From positions 1 through 64,000 of the forward strand of contig NZ_VUKC01000017.1 in NCBI RefSeq assembly GCF_009193135.1: DNA of 64,000 nt, given 5' to 3'. Source of the DNA: Georgenia satyanarayanai. Lineage in GTDB: Bacteria > Actinomycetota > Actinomycetes > Actinomycetales > Actinomycetaceae. The notes below the pieces were generated by a model. It made no database searches. It saw only the letters and a program-made list of their open reading frames with translations, and had not been told where the DNA came from. Shown in pieces: positions 47,769 through 53,814 of this stretch (its first letter is position 1; the number at the start of each line of letters is the position of its first letter). The translations under genes and the position numbers were made by a program.

Positions 47769-48718
47769 ACCCGCACCCGCTCCCGCAGCTTCTCCAGCGT
47801 GGCCGGACCGATGCCGGAGACCTCGAGCAGCTCCTCGACGGAGTGGAAGGGACCGTTCGCGTCGCGCCACTCGAGGATCCGCTGCGCGATCGCCGGACCC
47901 ACCCCGGGCAGGGTGTCGAGCGCGGCGAGGTCGGCCGAGTTGAGGTCGATGACCCCGCCCTCGGCGGCCGGTTCGCCCGCGACCGGTCCGCCGCCGTCGG
48001 GCACCGGTCCCTCGCCGCCCGCGCCGCCCGGTGGCGCCTCCCCCACCCGCGGCACGTACACCTGCTCACCGTCGACGAGCGGCCGGGCGAGGTTCACGGC
48101 GGCCAGCTCGGCGTCCTCCTGCCCGCCACCCGCTGCGGTGACAGCGTCGGCGACGCGGGCCCCCGTGGGCAGCTCGACCACCCCGGGCTCGTGGACGGCC
48201 CCCGCCACGTGGACGACCACGACGCCGGCCGGCTCGGGCATCTCCCCTGCCACGGGCTCGCCCTCCGCGGTCCCCTCCGAGGTCTCCGTGGCGAGCGGTT
48301 CGGGCGGTACGGCCTCGGACGGACCGGGGTCGATCATCGGGGTCACCTGCGGCACCGGGACGGCGTCGGACGGGCCGAGGGCGATCGCGCGGGCGACCAC
48401 CGCGCCGGCGAAGGCCGCCACCACGGCGAGCACGACGACGACCGCCCGGCCCGAGACCGTCCACCGGCGCACCGGCCGCTCCTGTGTGCCCTCACCCCGC
48501 CGGCCACCACCGGCACGCACCGCCGCTCCGCTGCCGGCCCGCCTGCTCACGAGGCCCTCCGCCGCGCGGTCGTCCCCCCGCTGCTCCCCGCTGACGATGC
48601 GGTCGAACTCGCGCCCGGCGTCGTCGTCGAGGTCGAGGTGCCCGGACGTAGCCGTGTAGGCGCGGCGGGTCAGCGCCCGCAGCCTGGCCGCGGAGTCCGT
48701 CCGCCTCGTCGGTGCCAT
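47765..48718 (-). CDS. comEA: ComEA-family helix-hairpin-helix DNA-binding protein
   Basis: The protein has 317 residues. A long cytoplasmic N-terminus of about 85 residues precedes one transmembrane helix (about 90-112). An SLBB domain (about 160-220) has V-V-V-H-V-A-G-A-V-H-E-P-G-V-V. A Gly/Pro linker then leads to tandem HhH motifs (about 255-317) with I-D-L-N-S-A-D and L-P-G-V-G-P-A-I-A. It is a DNA receptor for uptake. The ATG at 48718 is used; the cytoplasmic extension is longer than in Bacillus ComEA. It is co-transcribed with comEC. Confidence 0.94.
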   Translation of the reverse strand: MAPTRRTDSAARLRALTRRAYTATSGHLDLDDDAGREFDRIVSGEQRGDDRAAEGLVSRRAGSGAAVRAGGGRRGEGTQERPVRRWTVSGRAVVVVLAVVAAFAGAVVARAIALGPSDAVPVPQVTPMIDPGPSEAVPPEPLATETSEGTAEGEPVAGEMPEPAGVVVVHVAGAVHEPGVVELPTGARVADAVTAAGGGQEDAELAAVNLARPLVDGEQVYVPRVGEAPPGGAGGEGPVPDGGGPVAGEPAAEGGVIDLNSADLAALDTLPGVGPAIAQRILEWRDANGPFHSVEELLEVSGIGPATLEKLRERVRV

Positions 48719-48830
48719 GCGCGTGACCGTACGGACCGCGGCGGACGCGACCCCGACGGCGGGTGCCCCACCGGGGACTGCCCGGTCCGCCGTCGTCCTG
48801 TGGAGCAGTGCGGGCGCCGTGGACCGCGGT

Positions 48831-49730
48831 TCAGTCACCCGCCGGGGCGAGCGCCACGCCGACGACACCGGGACCCGTGTGCGCCCCGACGACGGCGGTG
48901 ACCTCGCTGCGGACGATGCTCGCCACCCGCGCACCCGTCTCGGTCAGGCGCTGCTCGAGCGCAGCGGCGAGGGCGTCGGCGGTCGTGGTGTCGGCGAAGT
49001 GGTGGACTGCCACCCGGACCGGTCCGCCGTCGCCGCGGGGCGCCGCCGCACCCGGCCCGCCCGCCGCCCGGACGGCGAGCTCGACGATCCGCCGCTGCGT
49101 CCGCGCCGCCCCGCGGGCCGTCTCGGCGACCGCCAGTCTCCCGCCCCGCAGGGCGAGGATCGGGCGGACGCCGAGGGCCGAGCCGAGGAAGACCCGTGCG
49201 GGACCGATGCGTCCTCCCCGCGCGAGGTGGTGGAGGTCCGGCACGGCGAAGAGGACGCTGCTGCGGGCCGCCGTCTCCCGTGCTGCGGCGAGGACGCCGT
49301 CGGCGCTCACCCCGCGCGCCGCACGCTCGGCTGCCGCGAGCGCCGCGAAACCCGTCCCGCCGCCGACCGTGCGGGTGTCGACGACGTGCACGGGGGTCCC
49401 GCGGCGCCCGGTGACCTCCTCGGCCGCCCGGCGGGCGTGCGCGACGGTTCCCGACAGCTCGGCCGACAGGTGCACGCACACGACGGCGGAGGCGCCGTCG
49501 TCGACGGCCGCCTCCATCGCGTCGGTGAGCGCCTGCCGGGACGGGCCGGACGTCGTCGCCGTCCCGCCCGCCCGGAGGTGCGCGGCGAGCCCCTCGCGGC
49601 TGAGGTCGTCGTCGGGGTGGTCCGCGCCGTTGATCAGGACGCGTAGGGGGACCACCCGGATCCCCAGGCGCTGCGCCGTCTGCGGCGACAGCGAGGCCGT
49701 GGAGTCGGTGAGGACCACGACGCCGGGCAT
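48831..49730 (-). CDS. DegV family protein (fatty-acid-binding)
   Basis: The protein has 299 residues. It has the DegV N-terminal motif T-D-S-T-A-S-L-S (about 8-15), then T-A-T-T-S-G-P-S-R, and a second fold half with V-G-V-A-L-A-P near the end. In Firmicutes, homologues (FakB) deliver fatty acids to a FakA kinase; no fakA is in the window, so the role here is not fixed. The ATG at 49730 is used; a GTG directly before it is possible. The 112-nt gap to comEA holds nothing recognisable. Confidence 0.9.
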   Translation of the reverse strand: MPGVVVLTDSTASLSPQTAQRLGIRVVPLRVLINGADHPDDDLSREGLAAHLRAGGTATTSGPSRQALTDAMEAAVDDGASAVVCVHLSAELSGTVAHARRAAEEVTGRRGTPVHVVDTRTVGGGTGFAALAAAERAARGVSADGVLAAARETAARSSVLFAVPDLHHLARGGRIGPARVFLGSALGVRPILALRGGRLAVAETARGAARTQRRIVELAVRAAGGPGAAAPRGDGGPVRVAVHHFADTTTADALAAALEQRLTETGARVASIVRSEVTAVVGAHTGPGVVGVALAPAGD

Positions 49731-49811
49731 CACCCCATCATCGCACCCGGGGCTCGAGCTGCCGGCCCCGGGCACGAGACCGTGCCCGGGCTCGCGGCCG
49801 CCGTCCCCGCG

Positions 49812-50783
49812 TCACGCCGGGACCGGCTGCGTCTCCGACGCTCCCGCCACGGTCACCAGGCCCCGTGCCTGCAGCGCCGGGATGATCCCCCGCAGCAGCC
49901 GCTGGACGTCGGCGGGGATGGAGCCGGGGAGGACGACGAAGCCGTCCGCGGCGCCCGCCTCGACCCACTTCTCGATGGTCGCGACGACGTCGCCCACCGT
50001 GCCGACGGCCTCGAGCGAGCCCGCCCACCCGGCGTCGCCACCGGCGATGTCGGTGAGGAGGTCCGCCCGGGCACGGGCGGACTCGTAGTCGGCCGCGATG
50101 ACGGTCCGGAGGTCGACGAGGACGCGGACGGGGCCACGGCCGGCGGCGCGCGCGGCGGAGCGCACGGCGAAGCGCAGCTCGCGCGCCCAGCTCAGGTCGG
50201 CCTCGCGGAGGCGGACGACGTCGGCGAGCTCGCCCGCGGCGGCGAGGTCGGCCTCCTCCTCGAGCGGGACGACGACGGTGGGCCGCTGGCTGGAGCGGGC
50301 CGCCGTGCTGCGGACGAGCTCCTCGAGCAGGTCCCCGAGCTGGGGCAGCGCGGCCACCGGCGCCTGCTCACCGCGCGCGATCTGCAGGCCGGCCCACGAG
50401 CCGCTCTTGCGGTTGAACTGGGCCAGCTCGGCGGCCACAGCGGAGTCGGCGCGGCCGACCTGGACGGTGGGCACGAGGCCCGTGCCGCCGGCGCTCGGGC
50501 TGATGCGGCGGGCGGCGATGACCGGGTCGAGCCAGGCGTTGGCCCGCGGTCCGACGTCGGCCCGGAGGCGGAAGTCCTCACCGAGCGTGACGAAGGAGAC
50601 CCCGCCCTTGTGAGCGGCACGGGCGTAGGAGGCGAGGCGGACGAGGTTGGCCTGCTCGGCGGGCAGGCCGGCGGCCGCCTCCCGGTCGTGGGCGGGGGCG
50701 CCGAGTCCGGAGAGGTCGAGGGCGATCGTCGCGGTGGTCGAGGTCGTCGCGGTGGTACGGGTGGGCAGGAACGCAGCAGTCAT
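49812..50783 (-). CDS. Luciferase-like (LLM) flavin-dependent monooxygenase
   Basis: The protein has about 323 residues, short for the NtaA/SsuD/DszA-like group. N-terminal strand A-L-D-L-S-G-L-G, L-A-S-Y-A-R-A-A-H-K-G-G and a TIM-barrel strand pattern are seen. The C-terminus has G-A-A-D-G-F-V-V-L-P-G-S-I-P-A-D-V and I-I-P-A-L-Q-A-R-G, typical of the class. It would use reduced FMN to cleave a C-S bond or oxidise a sulfur or nitrogen compound. The SAM-IV riboswitch and Met/Cys-rich leader upstream indicate sulfur metabolism. The ATG at 50783 has no strong ribosome site; a GTG at 50804 is an alternative. The flavin reductase at 53299-53814 is a candidate partner. Confidence 0.82.
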   Translation of the reverse strand: MTAAFLPTRTTATTSTTATIALDLSGLGAPAHDREAAAGLPAEQANLVRLASYARAAHKGGVSFVTLGEDFRLRADVGPRANAWLDPVIAARRISPSAGGTGLVPTVQVGRADSAVAAELAQFNRKSGSWAGLQIARGEQAPVAALPQLGDLLEELVRSTAARSSQRPTVVVPLEEEADLAAAGELADVVRLREADLSWARELRFAVRSAARAAGRGPVRVLVDLRTVIAADYESARARADLLTDIAGGDAGWAGSLEAVGTVGDVVATIEKWVEAGAADGFVVLPGSIPADVQRLLRGIIPALQARGLVTVAGASETQPVPA

Positions 50784-50937
50784 GGCAGCACCAATCAAGG
50801 TCACAGCGCCTGGGGGCGCCGGGAAGGACGTCGAGACCTGATACGCCTGGTCCGGCGCCTGGCGTGTCACTCGCCGGCGGCTCGGGGGCTGGATCAGGGG
50901 TGACGCGTCAGCGCGGCTCGCGCCGAGGGCGTCGCTT

Positions 50938-50964
50938 CCGTATGTCTCAGACCGACATACACGG
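50938..50964 (-). promoter_or_regulatory. Hairpin over the stop codon of the leader ORF
   Basis: GTATGTC (minus strand, complement of 50954-50960) pairs with GACATAC (complement of 50940-50946) around a 7-nt loop that contains the leader's TGA stop. A ribosome pausing on the Met/Cys codons just upstream would keep it open or closed. It could act as an attenuator or a downstream start-site control; no T-tract follows. Confidence 0.5.
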
Positions 50965-51033
50965 ACGACCGCACATGCACATGCTGCTGCCGCGACGGCT
51001 GGTGGTCTGCCGGGGGCTGAGGTGCGTGGTCAT
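50947..51033 (-). CDS. Met/Cys-rich leader peptide ORF (28 aa)
   Basis: The ORF lies between the SAM-IV riboswitch and the LLM monooxygenase. The ATG at 51033 is preceded by AAGGACG about 10 nt upstream. The peptide begins M-T-T-H-L-S-P-R and ends M-C-M-C-G-R-P-C-M-S-V, so 7 of 28 residues are Met or Cys, 6 of them in the last 11. Actinobacteria use short Cys-rich ORFs as cysteine-responsive attenuators of sulfur genes; this resembles them in position and composition. Its function as a sensor is inferred. Translation is not proven. Confidence 0.6.
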   Translation of the reverse strand: MTTHLSPRQTTSRRGSSMCMCGRPCMSV

Positions 51034-51079
51034 CCTGGTACGTCCTTCGCGTGCTGGCACCGTCACGGTGCGCTCCGTT

Positions 51080-51198
51080 GTCCCGACGGTCACGGGACCA
51101 GGTCATCACCCGGGGCACCCGCCGCACGTGGCGGGTTGCCGACCAGCAAGCCGGGGCTTAGCGCACTCGAGGTGCGCACTGGTGCTCTGAACCTGGGG
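51080..51198 (-). ncRNA. SAM-IV riboswitch aptamer
   Basis: Read on the minus strand the core contains AAGCCCCGGCTTGCTGG, CGGCAACCC and GTGCCCCGGGTGATGACC, which are the hallmark conserved segments of SAM-IV (SAM-I clan) aptamers. P1 is formed by CCAGGT (5') and ACCTGG (3'). A further hairpin GTCCCG-7 nt-CGGGAC (51080-51098) directly after P1 matches the extra 3' hairpin that distinguishes SAM-IV from SAM-I. It senses S-adenosylmethionine and usually turns off sulfur or methionine genes. The output structure before 51033 is not clear to me. Confidence 0.9.
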
Positions 51199-51201
51199 CC
51201 G

Positions 51202-51231
51202 ACGCTAGCGGGGTCTCACTTCATGTGTCAA
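51202..51231 (-). promoter_or_regulatory. Promoter of the riboswitch-LLM transcript
   Basis: A perfect TTGACA (complement of 51226-51231), 18-nt spacer and TAGCGT (complement of 51202-51207). Transcription would start about 7 nt later, right at the 5' strand of riboswitch P1. Confidence 0.8.
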
Positions 51232-51302
51232 CTGTCACGCGCTCGAATGTCAGTGGTCGGTCATACGGTGGGGTCATCAGGTTCACGGAGGTGGTGAGCA
51301 AG

Positions 51303-53183
51303 ATGGCGGCGACGCAGGCCGAGGGCCCGGGGTGGAGTGCGGCCGACCTCGCCGGTCCGCCGCCCTGGCTCGTGCTCGACGACGGTCCCGCCGAGCTCCC
51401 TCCCCTCCCAGCCGACCCCCTCCCACCGGGAACCGGCCCCGACGAGCGCTGGTCCCAGGAGATCCCCGTCGCGGACGACGGACCCGCCGAGCTCCCGCCC
51501 CTTCCGCCCGACCCGCTCGCGCTGGCCGGCCGCCCCGCCCGGCACAGGGATGCGGACCCCCTCGACGGCGACGACGGCGCAGAGCTGGGTCGCCTGCTCA
51601 CCGCCCTGCCCCCGGGGCCTGATCTCGCGGCGGCGCTCGAGGCTCTGGACCCACGCGCCGTCGACCTGTACGGGCTGGTCGAGATCGTGGCCGGCTACCA
51701 GCGGCTGTCGTCCTGGGCCACGGCCCGGGCCACCGAGCTCAGCGGGGTTCTCGCGGGGCGACCGGGCATCAACCCGCACCACCCGCTCCCGGGCGGGACG
51801 ATCGCGGCGGACTCCGCCGCCGCCGAGCTCGCTCCGCGGCTGGGGATCACGCGCTTCGCGGCGCGGCGCATGGTGGGCCACGCCCAGCTCTTCCGGGACA
51901 AGCTCGACCAGACGGCGCAGGCGCTCCGGCAGGGTGTCATCGACCCGGCCAAGGCGGCCGTGCTCGCGCGCCACCTCGCGGACCAGCCGGCGGACGTCGC
52001 CTGGGAGGTCCAGCGCGTGGTCCTGCCCGATGCCCTGCACCAGACGCCCGGCCAGCTCGCCCGCGCCGTGGAGAGGGCGATCATCGCGATCAACCCGAGC
52101 CGGGCGGTCCAGCGGCACCGGCGCGCACGCGAGGAGCGGCGGGTGGACCACCCGCGTCCGCTGCCCGACGGCATGGCCTCCATCCACGCACTCCTTCCCG
52201 CCACCGACGCCGCGGGCCTCGACCTCGCTCTGGAGGCGGCCGCGCGCAGCGCAGAGGCGGCCGGGGACGGCCGCACCATCGACCAGCTCCGTGCTGACGT
52301 CCTCGCTCTCATGGGCCACACCGCTCTCGAGCAGGGCTACGTCGGCCTGCCGGAGCCGAGCGACACGGACGTGGTGCCCGCCGCGGAGGCGGGCGGCGGG
52401 AACGCTCGGGTGGACGACGCCGACGACGGCGCGTCGGACGCCCCGTCGGCCGCCACCGGCACGCCGGACCTCCAGCCCGTCAGCGACTACCTCCGGATGC
52501 TCCACATGCCGATCGGCACCATCGGCGGGAGGCGTGCCGTCATCCGGGTGGACGTGCCGCTGTCGGTCCTCGTCCTCCCGCCGGAGACGCAGGGCGCCTT
52601 CCCCGCCTTCGGCGAGTGCCTGGACCACCTCGCGGGAGAAGCCGACAAGGCCGCAGGGGCGAGCCCTGCCCACGACCGTCCGGTGGACAGCCTTGCCGAC
52701 GAACCTGCCGACGACCCCCCGCTGGCCGAGGTCGCCGAGCTCGAGGGCTACGGCCCCATCACCCCCGACGTCGCCCGCGCGCTGGCGATGAGCGAGGGCA
52801 TCTGGCAGCGGATCGTCACGGACCCGCTGAGCGGCGAGGTCCTCGACGTCGGCCGCACCCGCTACCGCCCGCCCGCCGCCCTGGCCGAGTTCGTCCGGGT
52901 CCGCGACCGCACGTGCGTCGTCCCGGGCTGCTCCAGACCGGCGCACGGCTGCGACCTCGACCACGTCGTCCCGTTCCCCGAGGGACCCACGAGCGCCGCC
53001 AACCTCGGTGCGGGGTGCCGGCCCCACCACGTCCTCAAGACGCTCGGCCAGTTCCGCCTCGAGCACCTGGGAGGCGGCAGCTTCCGGTGGACCACCCCGA
53101 GCGGGCACGTCTACCAGCGAGACCACCACGGCCGCGTCACCTGGGTGCGGACCGGCACCGACGACTCCGCGCCGCCCTTCTGA
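51303..53183 (+). CDS. DUF222 / HNH endonuclease domain protein (13E12-like family)
   Basis: The protein has 626 residues. The N-terminal 110 residues are Pro/Asp-rich with an internal duplication D-D-G-P-A-E-L-P-P-L-P. The DUF222 helical domain follows (about 115-340). The C-terminal HNH domain (about 540-590) has C-V-V-P-G-C, D-L-D-H-V-V-P-F-P-E-G and C-R-P-H-H, with paired Cys and the catalytic D-H. These genes are present in many copies in actinobacterial genomes and are thought to be mobile or homing-like; activity is unproven. The ATG at 51303 follows ACGGAGG at 10 nt. It lies between the LLM gene and the flavin reductase. Confidence 0.9.
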   Translation: MAATQAEGPGWSAADLAGPPPWLVLDDGPAELPPLPADPLPPGTGPDERWSQEIPVADDGPAELPPLPPDPLALAGRPARHRDADPLDGDDGAELGRLLTALPPGPDLAAALEALDPRAVDLYGLVEIVAGYQRLSSWATARATELSGVLAGRPGINPHHPLPGGTIAADSAAAELAPRLGITRFAARRMVGHAQLFRDKLDQTAQALRQGVIDPAKAAVLARHLADQPADVAWEVQRVVLPDALHQTPGQLARAVERAIIAINPSRAVQRHRRAREERRVDHPRPLPDGMASIHALLPATDAAGLDLALEAAARSAEAAGDGRTIDQLRADVLALMGHTALEQGYVGLPEPSDTDVVPAAEAGGGNARVDDADDGASDAPSAATGTPDLQPVSDYLRMLHMPIGTIGGRRAVIRVDVPLSVLVLPPETQGAFPAFGECLDHLAGEADKAAGASPAHDRPVDSLADEPADDPPLAEVAELEGYGPITPDVARALAMSEGIWQRIVTDPLSGEVLDVGRTRYRPPAALAEFVRVRDRTCVVPGCSRPAHGCDLDHVVPFPEGPTSAANLGAGCRPHHVLKTLGQFRLEHLGGGSFRWTTPSGHVYQRDHHGRVTWVRTGTDDSAPPF

Positions 53184-53298: not shown

Positions 53299-53814
53299 AT
53301 GACCGCCGAGCAGCCCGCCAGCCCCACTGCCCTGCCCCAGTCGGTGAGCAGCGAGGAGTTCAAGGCCGTCTTCCGCCGCCACCCCGCGGGCGTCGCCGTC
53401 GTCACCTGCTCCACCCCGGACGGTCCCGCGGGCTTCACCGCGACCTCGGTGATCTCCGTCGCCGCGAACCCCGCGATGCTCGCCTTCTCGGTGGCCGCCG
53501 GCTCCACGTCGCGCCGCATCCTCGACAGCGCCCCGAGCGTCGTCGTCAACTTCCTCAGCCAGGACCAGCAGGACCTCGCCCGCCGCTTCGCCGCCCGGGA
53601 CACCGACCGCTTCGCCGGCCTCGAGTTCTGCTCGCTGCCCACCGGCGAACCCGTCCTGCCGGGGACGACCGCCTGGATCAGGGGCGTCGTCGAGCAGCGC
53701 GTGCCCGTCGGCGACAGCCTGCTCATCACGCTGCGCGCGGTCCTCGCCCACCGCGAGGACGGCACGGAACCGCTCGTCTACCTCGACCGCACCTTCCCCC
53801 GCCTGGAGGGCTGA
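53299..53814 (+). CDS. Flavin reductase (HpaC/Rif17-like)
   Basis: The protein has 171 residues. It has the split beta-barrel flavin reductase fold: F-R-R-H-P-A-G-V-A-V-V-T, G-F-T-A-T-S-V-I-S-V-A-A-N-P (FMN-binding region) and V-V-V-N-F-L-S. It would supply reduced FMN or FAD to a monooxygenase, plausibly the LLM protein at 49812-50783. The ATG at 53299 has a weak GAAGGA site upstream. A terminator follows 8 nt after the stop. Confidence 0.9.
   Translation: MTAEQPASPTALPQSVSSEEFKAVFRRHPAGVAVVTCSTPDGPAGFTATSVISVAANPAMLAFSVAAGSTSRRILDSAPSVVVNFLSQDQQDLARRFAARDTDRFAGLEFCSLPTGEPVLPGTTAWIRGVVEQRVPVGDSLLITLRAVLAHREDGTEPLVYLDRTFPRLEG

Follow-up and report, generated by a model that had tools for sequence, protein, structure and literature searches.

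The 64,000-nt stretch of Georgenia satyanarayanai DNA analysed here (the window) carries, on the minus strand from position 51231 down to 49812, a promoter, a SAM-IV riboswitch aptamer, a short leader ORF, a structured post-leader RNA and a gene for an LLM-type flavin monooxygenase. A layout of promoter, SAM-IV, 28-codon ORF, stop-codon hairpin and LLM gene had been proposed earlier, and each of these parts was found where the original prediction had put it. The best named matches of the LLM protein, with 95–96% identity, come from Oceanitalea stevensii and Georgenia satyanarayanai.

The promoter (51202..51231) is made of a perfect −35 box, TTGACA (51231–51226), an 18-nt spacer and the −10 box TAGCGT (51207–51202), which matches TATAAT in only three of six positions; it is missing from the output of a simple sigma-70 scan for E. 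coli-type sites. The proposed promoter is a recurrent one: the pattern TTGACA/G-N17..19-TANNNT is situated just 5′ of the aptamer in 18 of the 20 loci that combine SAM-IV, leader and LLM gene (the −35 box is TTGACG in one of the 18 and TTGACA in the rest), while the remaining two loci, L011 and L219, were anchored at the wrong place by the script. The aptamer, which had been expected at 51080–51198, was located by the Rfam search at 51193–51069 (minus strand; RF00634, 57.7 bits with a gathering cut-off of 38, E-value 9.6e-9). The match spans the full length of the covariance model (positions 1–116), and its score above gathering identifies the element as a SAM-IV member; one of its helices carries 15 inserted nucleotides. 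This SAM-IV is the only one in the genome, and no other Rfam match was obtained in the region 48500–53000.

The leader ORF, MTTHLSPRQTTSRRGSSMCMCGRPCMSV, starts ∼35 nt past the aptamer and extends from ATG 51033 to TGA 50947 (50947..51033, minus strand); the 28 codons and the end MCMCGRPCMSV are as predicted. Its Shine-Dalgarno sequence GAAGGA (51043..51048, minus strand) is part of the block GAGCACGAAGGA, conserved in relatives. The number of internal Met/Cys codons is six, with 0.96 expected from nucleotide shuffles (p = 2.6e-4). The predicted leader therefore has the composition of an attenuator ORF: short, preceded by a Shine-Dalgarno sequence and repeating the codons of the amino acids to be sensed. 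The peptide is absent from the protein family libraries searched.

Upstream of LLM homologues the leader is conserved down to ∼35% protein identity, in two families. Leaders in genera g1, g8, g13 and g22 of the same GTDB family (LLM identity 46–96%) keep the Shine-Dalgarno sequence and the frame, vary in length from 28 to 31 codons by whole codons only, and typically end with SMCMCMCRSRMSA. Genus g21 (LLM identity 33–40%) has leaders ending with ...RRMRMWHKSMA or RRMYMCMHKSMA. The same design is carried by unlike leader sequences in L049 (genus g35) and in L184 and L192 (two genera of family f10), where leaders with the ends ...MMMCMATGCCRMSA, ...CCMCMCLCTMA and ...MCGALTAHPCMR are each found between SAM-IV and an LLM homologue. 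Locus L029 (genus g29) has an LLM homologue without SAM-IV and retains a leader ending with HCRMCR; leader and riboswitch can thus come apart. The expectation that Met/Cys codons would be conserved in related genomes was confirmed, with a difference between the two amino acids: Met codons are kept everywhere, while Cys codons are mostly lost or replaced in one genus, g21. In the proposed sensing of both amino acids, the invariant codons speak for Met, and tRNA-Cys is the weaker half.

Pairwise substitutions over the whole leader show no depletion of amino-acid changes (ratio 0.86), that is, no general purifying selection. Constraint on the leader is visible only in the frame, the start region and the Met/Cys end, a pattern that is usual for leader peptides.

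The LLM gene (49812..50783, minus strand, 323 aa) most likely starts with ATG 50783, ∼285 nt past the aptamer and 163 nt after the leader stop codon, close to the ∼150 nt first proposed. The protein produced no match in a Pfam scan and a weak match to TIGR03860 (NtaA/SnaA/DmoA), whose 59.4 bits, far below the curated cut-off of 279.7, do not assign it to this family. Sequence matches in the PDB, over ∼50 residues, are to YtnJ/CmoJ, MoxC, NTA monooxygenase and DszA/BdsA. AlphaFold2 predicts a TIM barrel (pLDDT 83), with structural matches to NTA monooxygenase, BdsA, CmoJ/YtnJ, DmoA, SfnG, MsuD and SsuD; by the Foldseek match to 3sdo (E-value 1.5e-15, TM 0.70 by query length) the model has the luciferase-like flavin monooxygenase fold. 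A flavin reductase gene (PF01613 by Pfam; 53299–53814, plus strand) is found 2.5 kb from the LLM gene, and the divergent pair beside the LLM gene in L220 (genus g22) presumably codes for a flavin reductase and an SsuE-like FMN reductase. Our best guess is that the LLM protein is a two-component monooxygenase for organosulfur compounds; the organosulfur role suggested originally fits the modelled fold and the gene context, and is predicted from structure matches and neighbours. LLM homologues in L220, L222, L223 and L224 have putative proB and/or proA genes nearby, and the presence of such neighbours in several genera of two families supports orthology of the LLM genes across families. On the other side of the gene, 37 nt past the LLM stop codon, a DegV-family gene begins, followed by ComEA-like and ComEC-like genes (49775–45405, minus strand); a read-through LLM-DegV-ComEA/ComEC operon is possible.

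The stretch between the leader and the LLM gene is also conserved: it contains a covarying RNA, a third part that the original parts list lacked. This 99-position element (50836..50936, minus strand) consists of hairpins H2 and H3. The H2 stem is GACGC/GCGUC plus an inner stem in the window, and GAYGC/GCRUC across relatives; H3 has the base CCUGA/UCAGG and the tip GGCG-AGUGACA-CGCC, with AGUGACA as the apical loop. In 13 sequences, standard pairs fill 97.2% of the pair cells versus 89.7% in shuffles, and two-sided changes number 21 versus 6.3; in a control with the structure slid along the alignment, paired cells drop to 24–52%. A covariance-model search detected the element in 17 of 213 family genomes, as a single copy in each and always in the LLM leader; none of 297 order genomes brought in a new genus. 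The idea of a widespread element was dropped, as model R1 places it only upstream of the LLM gene, in four genera. Rfam searches of the window region and of seven relatives' loci yielded no match to the post-leader RNA at E<1, only the SAM-IV upstream of it. The AGUGACA loop recurs on unrelated stems in L049 and L184, and is shared by weak look-alikes of the element in L222 and L224.

The hairpin claimed over the leader stop codon, H1 (GUAUGUC/GACAUAC; 50940..50960, minus strand), does exist and is kept in relatives, with a compensatory change to GAAUGUC/GACAUUC in genus g22. It was rejected as a universal feature, since its stability in 41 loci is no better than that of shuffles (mean z −0.25), and is retained only as a covarying feature of the LLM group. 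A long-range helix, P0, is suggested by the anti-Shine-Dalgarno stretch ACGUCCUUC (50823..50831, minus strand), which can pair with the leader Shine-Dalgarno sequence GAAGGACGU. The z values of P0 are −2.3 to −5.2 in the window's genus and weak elsewhere, g22 included; with a mean z of −1.2 the helix was likewise rejected as universal. Both of its sides are altered in L009 and L010, in a compensatory way, to GAAGGAAG(U)/(A)CUUCCUUC.

A consensus scan of 50500–51400 found no intrinsic terminator with a U-tract between leader and gene. Hairpins H2 and H3 covary but have no U-tract, and the pair of terminator and competing antiterminator that defines a classical transcriptional attenuator was not found. 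A pyrimidine-rich stretch is located 3′ of H3. The scan of L029 accepted no terminator after the leader; short hairpins with T-runs behind the leader of this locus (1000–1560) are below the acceptance level of the scan.

The series of SAM-IV, Met/Cys leader and gene is not peculiar to the LLM gene and recurs across many actinobacteria. We surveyed 145 distinct SAM-IV loci from family, order and class genomes. The first ORF preceded by a Shine-Dalgarno sequence after SAM-IV was a gene in 83 loci and a mini-ORF (up to 40 codons) in 46, with none called in 16; these proportions are not prevalence, as the sample was biased to high scores and hand-picked for genus variety. The combined share of Met and Cys is 15.9% in the mini-ORFs, 3.9% in their own shuffles and 1.3% in the N-terminal 30 residues encoded by directly controlled genes, and at least two internal Met/Cys occur in 28 of the 46 mini-ORFs. 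These 28 start at a mean distance of 64 nt from the aptamer (s.d. 11) and the genes at 78 nt (s.d. 16). From this similarity it follows that the mini-ORF takes the place of the direct target gene.

The mini-ORFs include MTCRMRR, MIQRMCP, MNCRMCC, MCIRRMCCR and MCCCRMN, as well as MRCCCQ in genus g57. The shortest design that we single out, MSKRMR, is a six-codon ORF, GTGAGCAAGCGAATGCG[AC]TAG, present after SAM-IV in L081, L086, L088, L093 and L094, which belong to genus g72 (Streptomyces-type genomes of 6–11 Mb). In S. lividans, SAM-IV is reported to precede a cysteine desulfurase gene (PMC8079986), and the product of the gene behind MSKRMR is similar to that enzyme; a Pfam search with a 75-residue piece of the g72 protein gave no match. 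The genes behind these Met/Cys leaders belong to sulfur metabolism, with products that include MetY-type PLP enzymes (Cys/Met family), LLM proteins, a sulfur transporter and an SsuE-like FMN reductase. In L164, for example, a leader of the RRHVDLLRVSSALCRR type comes between SAM-IV and an FMN reductase gene (PF03358). A search elsewhere for the metL-like pattern produced one Streptomyces-type match. In L084 (genus g57) a stretch directly upstream of the ribosome-binding site of the MetY-type gene, CAGCGACAACAA, shows partial complementarity to the leader Cys codons TTGCTGTTGTCGCTG, which makes this pairing a candidate translational attenuator. In four loci, L055, L058, L060 and L064, SAM-IV stands directly before small Cys/His-containing proteins (PGH..H) with the motifs WHHHDL (L055 and L058), WQHHDL (L064) and WLLHDH (L060); L055 and L064 are from genus g22, and with L058 the window's own genus has a second SAM-IV. 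We know of no family to which these small proteins belong. The open-licence literature contained no paper that joins SAM-IV with a leader ORF, although subscription papers on SAM-IV could contain one.

The leader start lies at the distance usual for SAM-IV targets and the LLM start far outside it; SAM-IV therefore most likely acts on translation of the leader and not on the enzyme directly. We think it on balance probable that three regulatory parts of one transcript work in series, from SAM-IV through leader translation and the fold of the downstream RNA to LLM expression. SAM-IV would govern translation initiation of the leader, with SAM closing the leader start. A ribosome that has entered the leader would slow or stall at the late Met/Cys codons if charged tRNA-Met (and tRNA-Cys) is short, and the position or absence of this ribosome would set the fold of H1, H2, H3 and the anti-Shine-Dalgarno stretch and so decide on LLM expression, in a last step that may act on transcription (through Rho or an atypical terminator) or on translation. 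The gene would be OFF by default and with SAM bound, and ON at low SAM together with low Met/Cys-tRNA; the enzyme would be made for sulfur scavenging when several sulfur pools are low. The parts, their order, their conservation and their covariation are established at the level of sequence, and from them we infer the SAM response, the stalling, the sign of each switch, the switching structure and the final step. The original interpretation is upheld in part, for SAM-IV, the conserved Met/Cys codons and the sulfur role. Its two-input gate would keep both inputs, SAM and Met/Cys-tRNA, which would be read in series and not by parallel gates on one gene. Counting against the series model are the lack of a U-tract terminator, the substitution ratio in the leader, the shuffle-like stability of H1 and the restriction of P0 to one genus.

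It may be that translation of the leader is itself the signal, so that SAM is the one input and the Met/Cys codons tune timing only: at low SAM a translating ribosome would keep Rho off or open the fold, and at high SAM the untranslated leader would be terminated. This reading, which we consider unlikely though serious, has a direct actinobacterial precedent in the Mbox uORF of M. tuberculosis, whose alpha-SD/rut stretch is resembled by the pyrimidine-rich stretch after H3 (PMC12810186), and the failure to find an intrinsic terminator in 50500–51400 agrees with it. However, it does not account for why Met/Cys is four times as frequent in the mini-ORFs as in shuffles, nor for the retention of Met/Cys ends in leaders of otherwise unlike sequence.

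The mini-ORFs have one more regularity. The Arg codon that precedes Met in the Met/Cys mini-ORFs is CGA in 24 of 28 cases, versus 6.2% of Arg codons in directly controlled genes. CGA-AUG occurs, L029 included, in at least 15 genera of nine families, a spread that relatedness alone does not explain. Conservation of CGAAUG for pairing with downstream RNA was considered and rejected, since in most loci the best duplexes do not surpass those of shuffles. We take CGA before AUG to be a codon-level constraint. CGA is generally decoded by the inosine-34 tRNA-Arg, a poor decoder, and at the pair the ribosome could pause before reaching Met. These figures would also suit an arrest or tuning peptide, in which the Arg-Met end slows the ribosome irrespective of tRNA charging and SAM-IV sets the number of ribosomes. 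This we regard as improbable: the leaders of the window's own genus and of L019 are without Arg-Met and end with RPCMSV, RPCMSA or RPGMSI, and so the pair is not essential. Very improbable, finally, is control of the enzyme by SAM-IV alone, with an ORF that is not translated and only reflects the conserved structure of the RNA. Such control would suit the strong RNA conservation of the region and the lack of overall purifying selection on the peptide, but not the Shine-Dalgarno sequence, frame and Met/Cys end that leaders from several families consistently have despite their unlike nucleotide sequences, nor an LLM start far beyond the usual SAM-IV target distance.

Beyond the series model for the LLM gene, we raise tentatively, as possible rather than probable, a so far undescribed class-wide actinobacterial module: the direct target of SAM-IV would be a mini-ORF with Met/Cys codons and a CGA-AUG pair under selection, forming an AND gate of SAM and aminoacyl-tRNA on sulfur genes, to which one group would add the AGUGACA-loop RNA, perhaps sensing something or binding a protein. 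SAM riboswitches are textbook one-input switches. If, for a substantial share of the SAM-IV riboswitches in actinobacteria, the first target is indeed a Met/Cys leader ORF, then what they control and by what logic will have to be read anew. The question of attenuation in GC-rich actinobacteria, poor in intrinsic terminators, gains short testable constructs, such as the six-codon MSKRMR. The consistency of CGA-AUG suggests a codon-pair device that makes the ribosome sensitive to Met-tRNA, and the LLM enzyme gains a testable role in organosulfur use.

The aptamer of the window resembles other SAM-IV members (RF00634) in its score above the cut-off and in the spacing to the first ORF; it differs in that this ORF is a leader peptide and not an enzyme, in its lower score and in the helix insertion. 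The mgtL leader of the enterobacterial mgtA gene responds to Mg2+ through its RNA and to proline through its codons. Like the proposed system, it joins a responsive leader RNA with a codon-sensing ORF, though with other inputs and unrelated sequences. Cysteine leader peptides of mycobacteria were reportedly described by Canestrari in 2020, a study cited in PMC9094748. Such peptides have runs of Cys codons near the stop codon and no obvious terminator (PMC1262725), as in the window; they would sense cysteine only, with no riboswitch reported, whereas Met is the constant part in the window's system. The Met-rich metL leader of S. lividans, MSTTSDRTPATEATTTPGARCMCRRMCAF, located before metNIQ (PMC8079986), shares with the window a short leader with a Met/Cys-rich end before a sulfur gene and the lack of a clear terminator, but its transcript is leaderless and SAM-IV was not reported there (PMC8079986). 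The Xanthomonas SAM-I riboswitch also senses uncharged initiator tRNA-Met (PMC7270179). There, too, SAM and Met-tRNA are integrated by one leader, with the difference that the RNA itself binds the tRNA while in the window a translated ORF would be the sensor. The nearest demonstrated case for the proposed leader control is M. tuberculosis Mbox-rv1805A-pe20, where a uORF is controlled via a translational platform with Rho-dependent termination (PMC12810186); in B12 riboswitch systems, too, a riboswitch and a small upstream ORF precede the regulated gene (PMC11260477). Both are like the window in having a riboswitch with a small uORF before a gene, and the Mbox uORF is the direct target; unlike them, the window has SAM as the ligand, an ORF rich in codons for amino acids of the ligand's pathway and a conserved RNA before the gene. 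Both kinds of device, the riboswitch with a uORF and the Met/Cys leader peptide, are thus already known, and their combination here is a variant.
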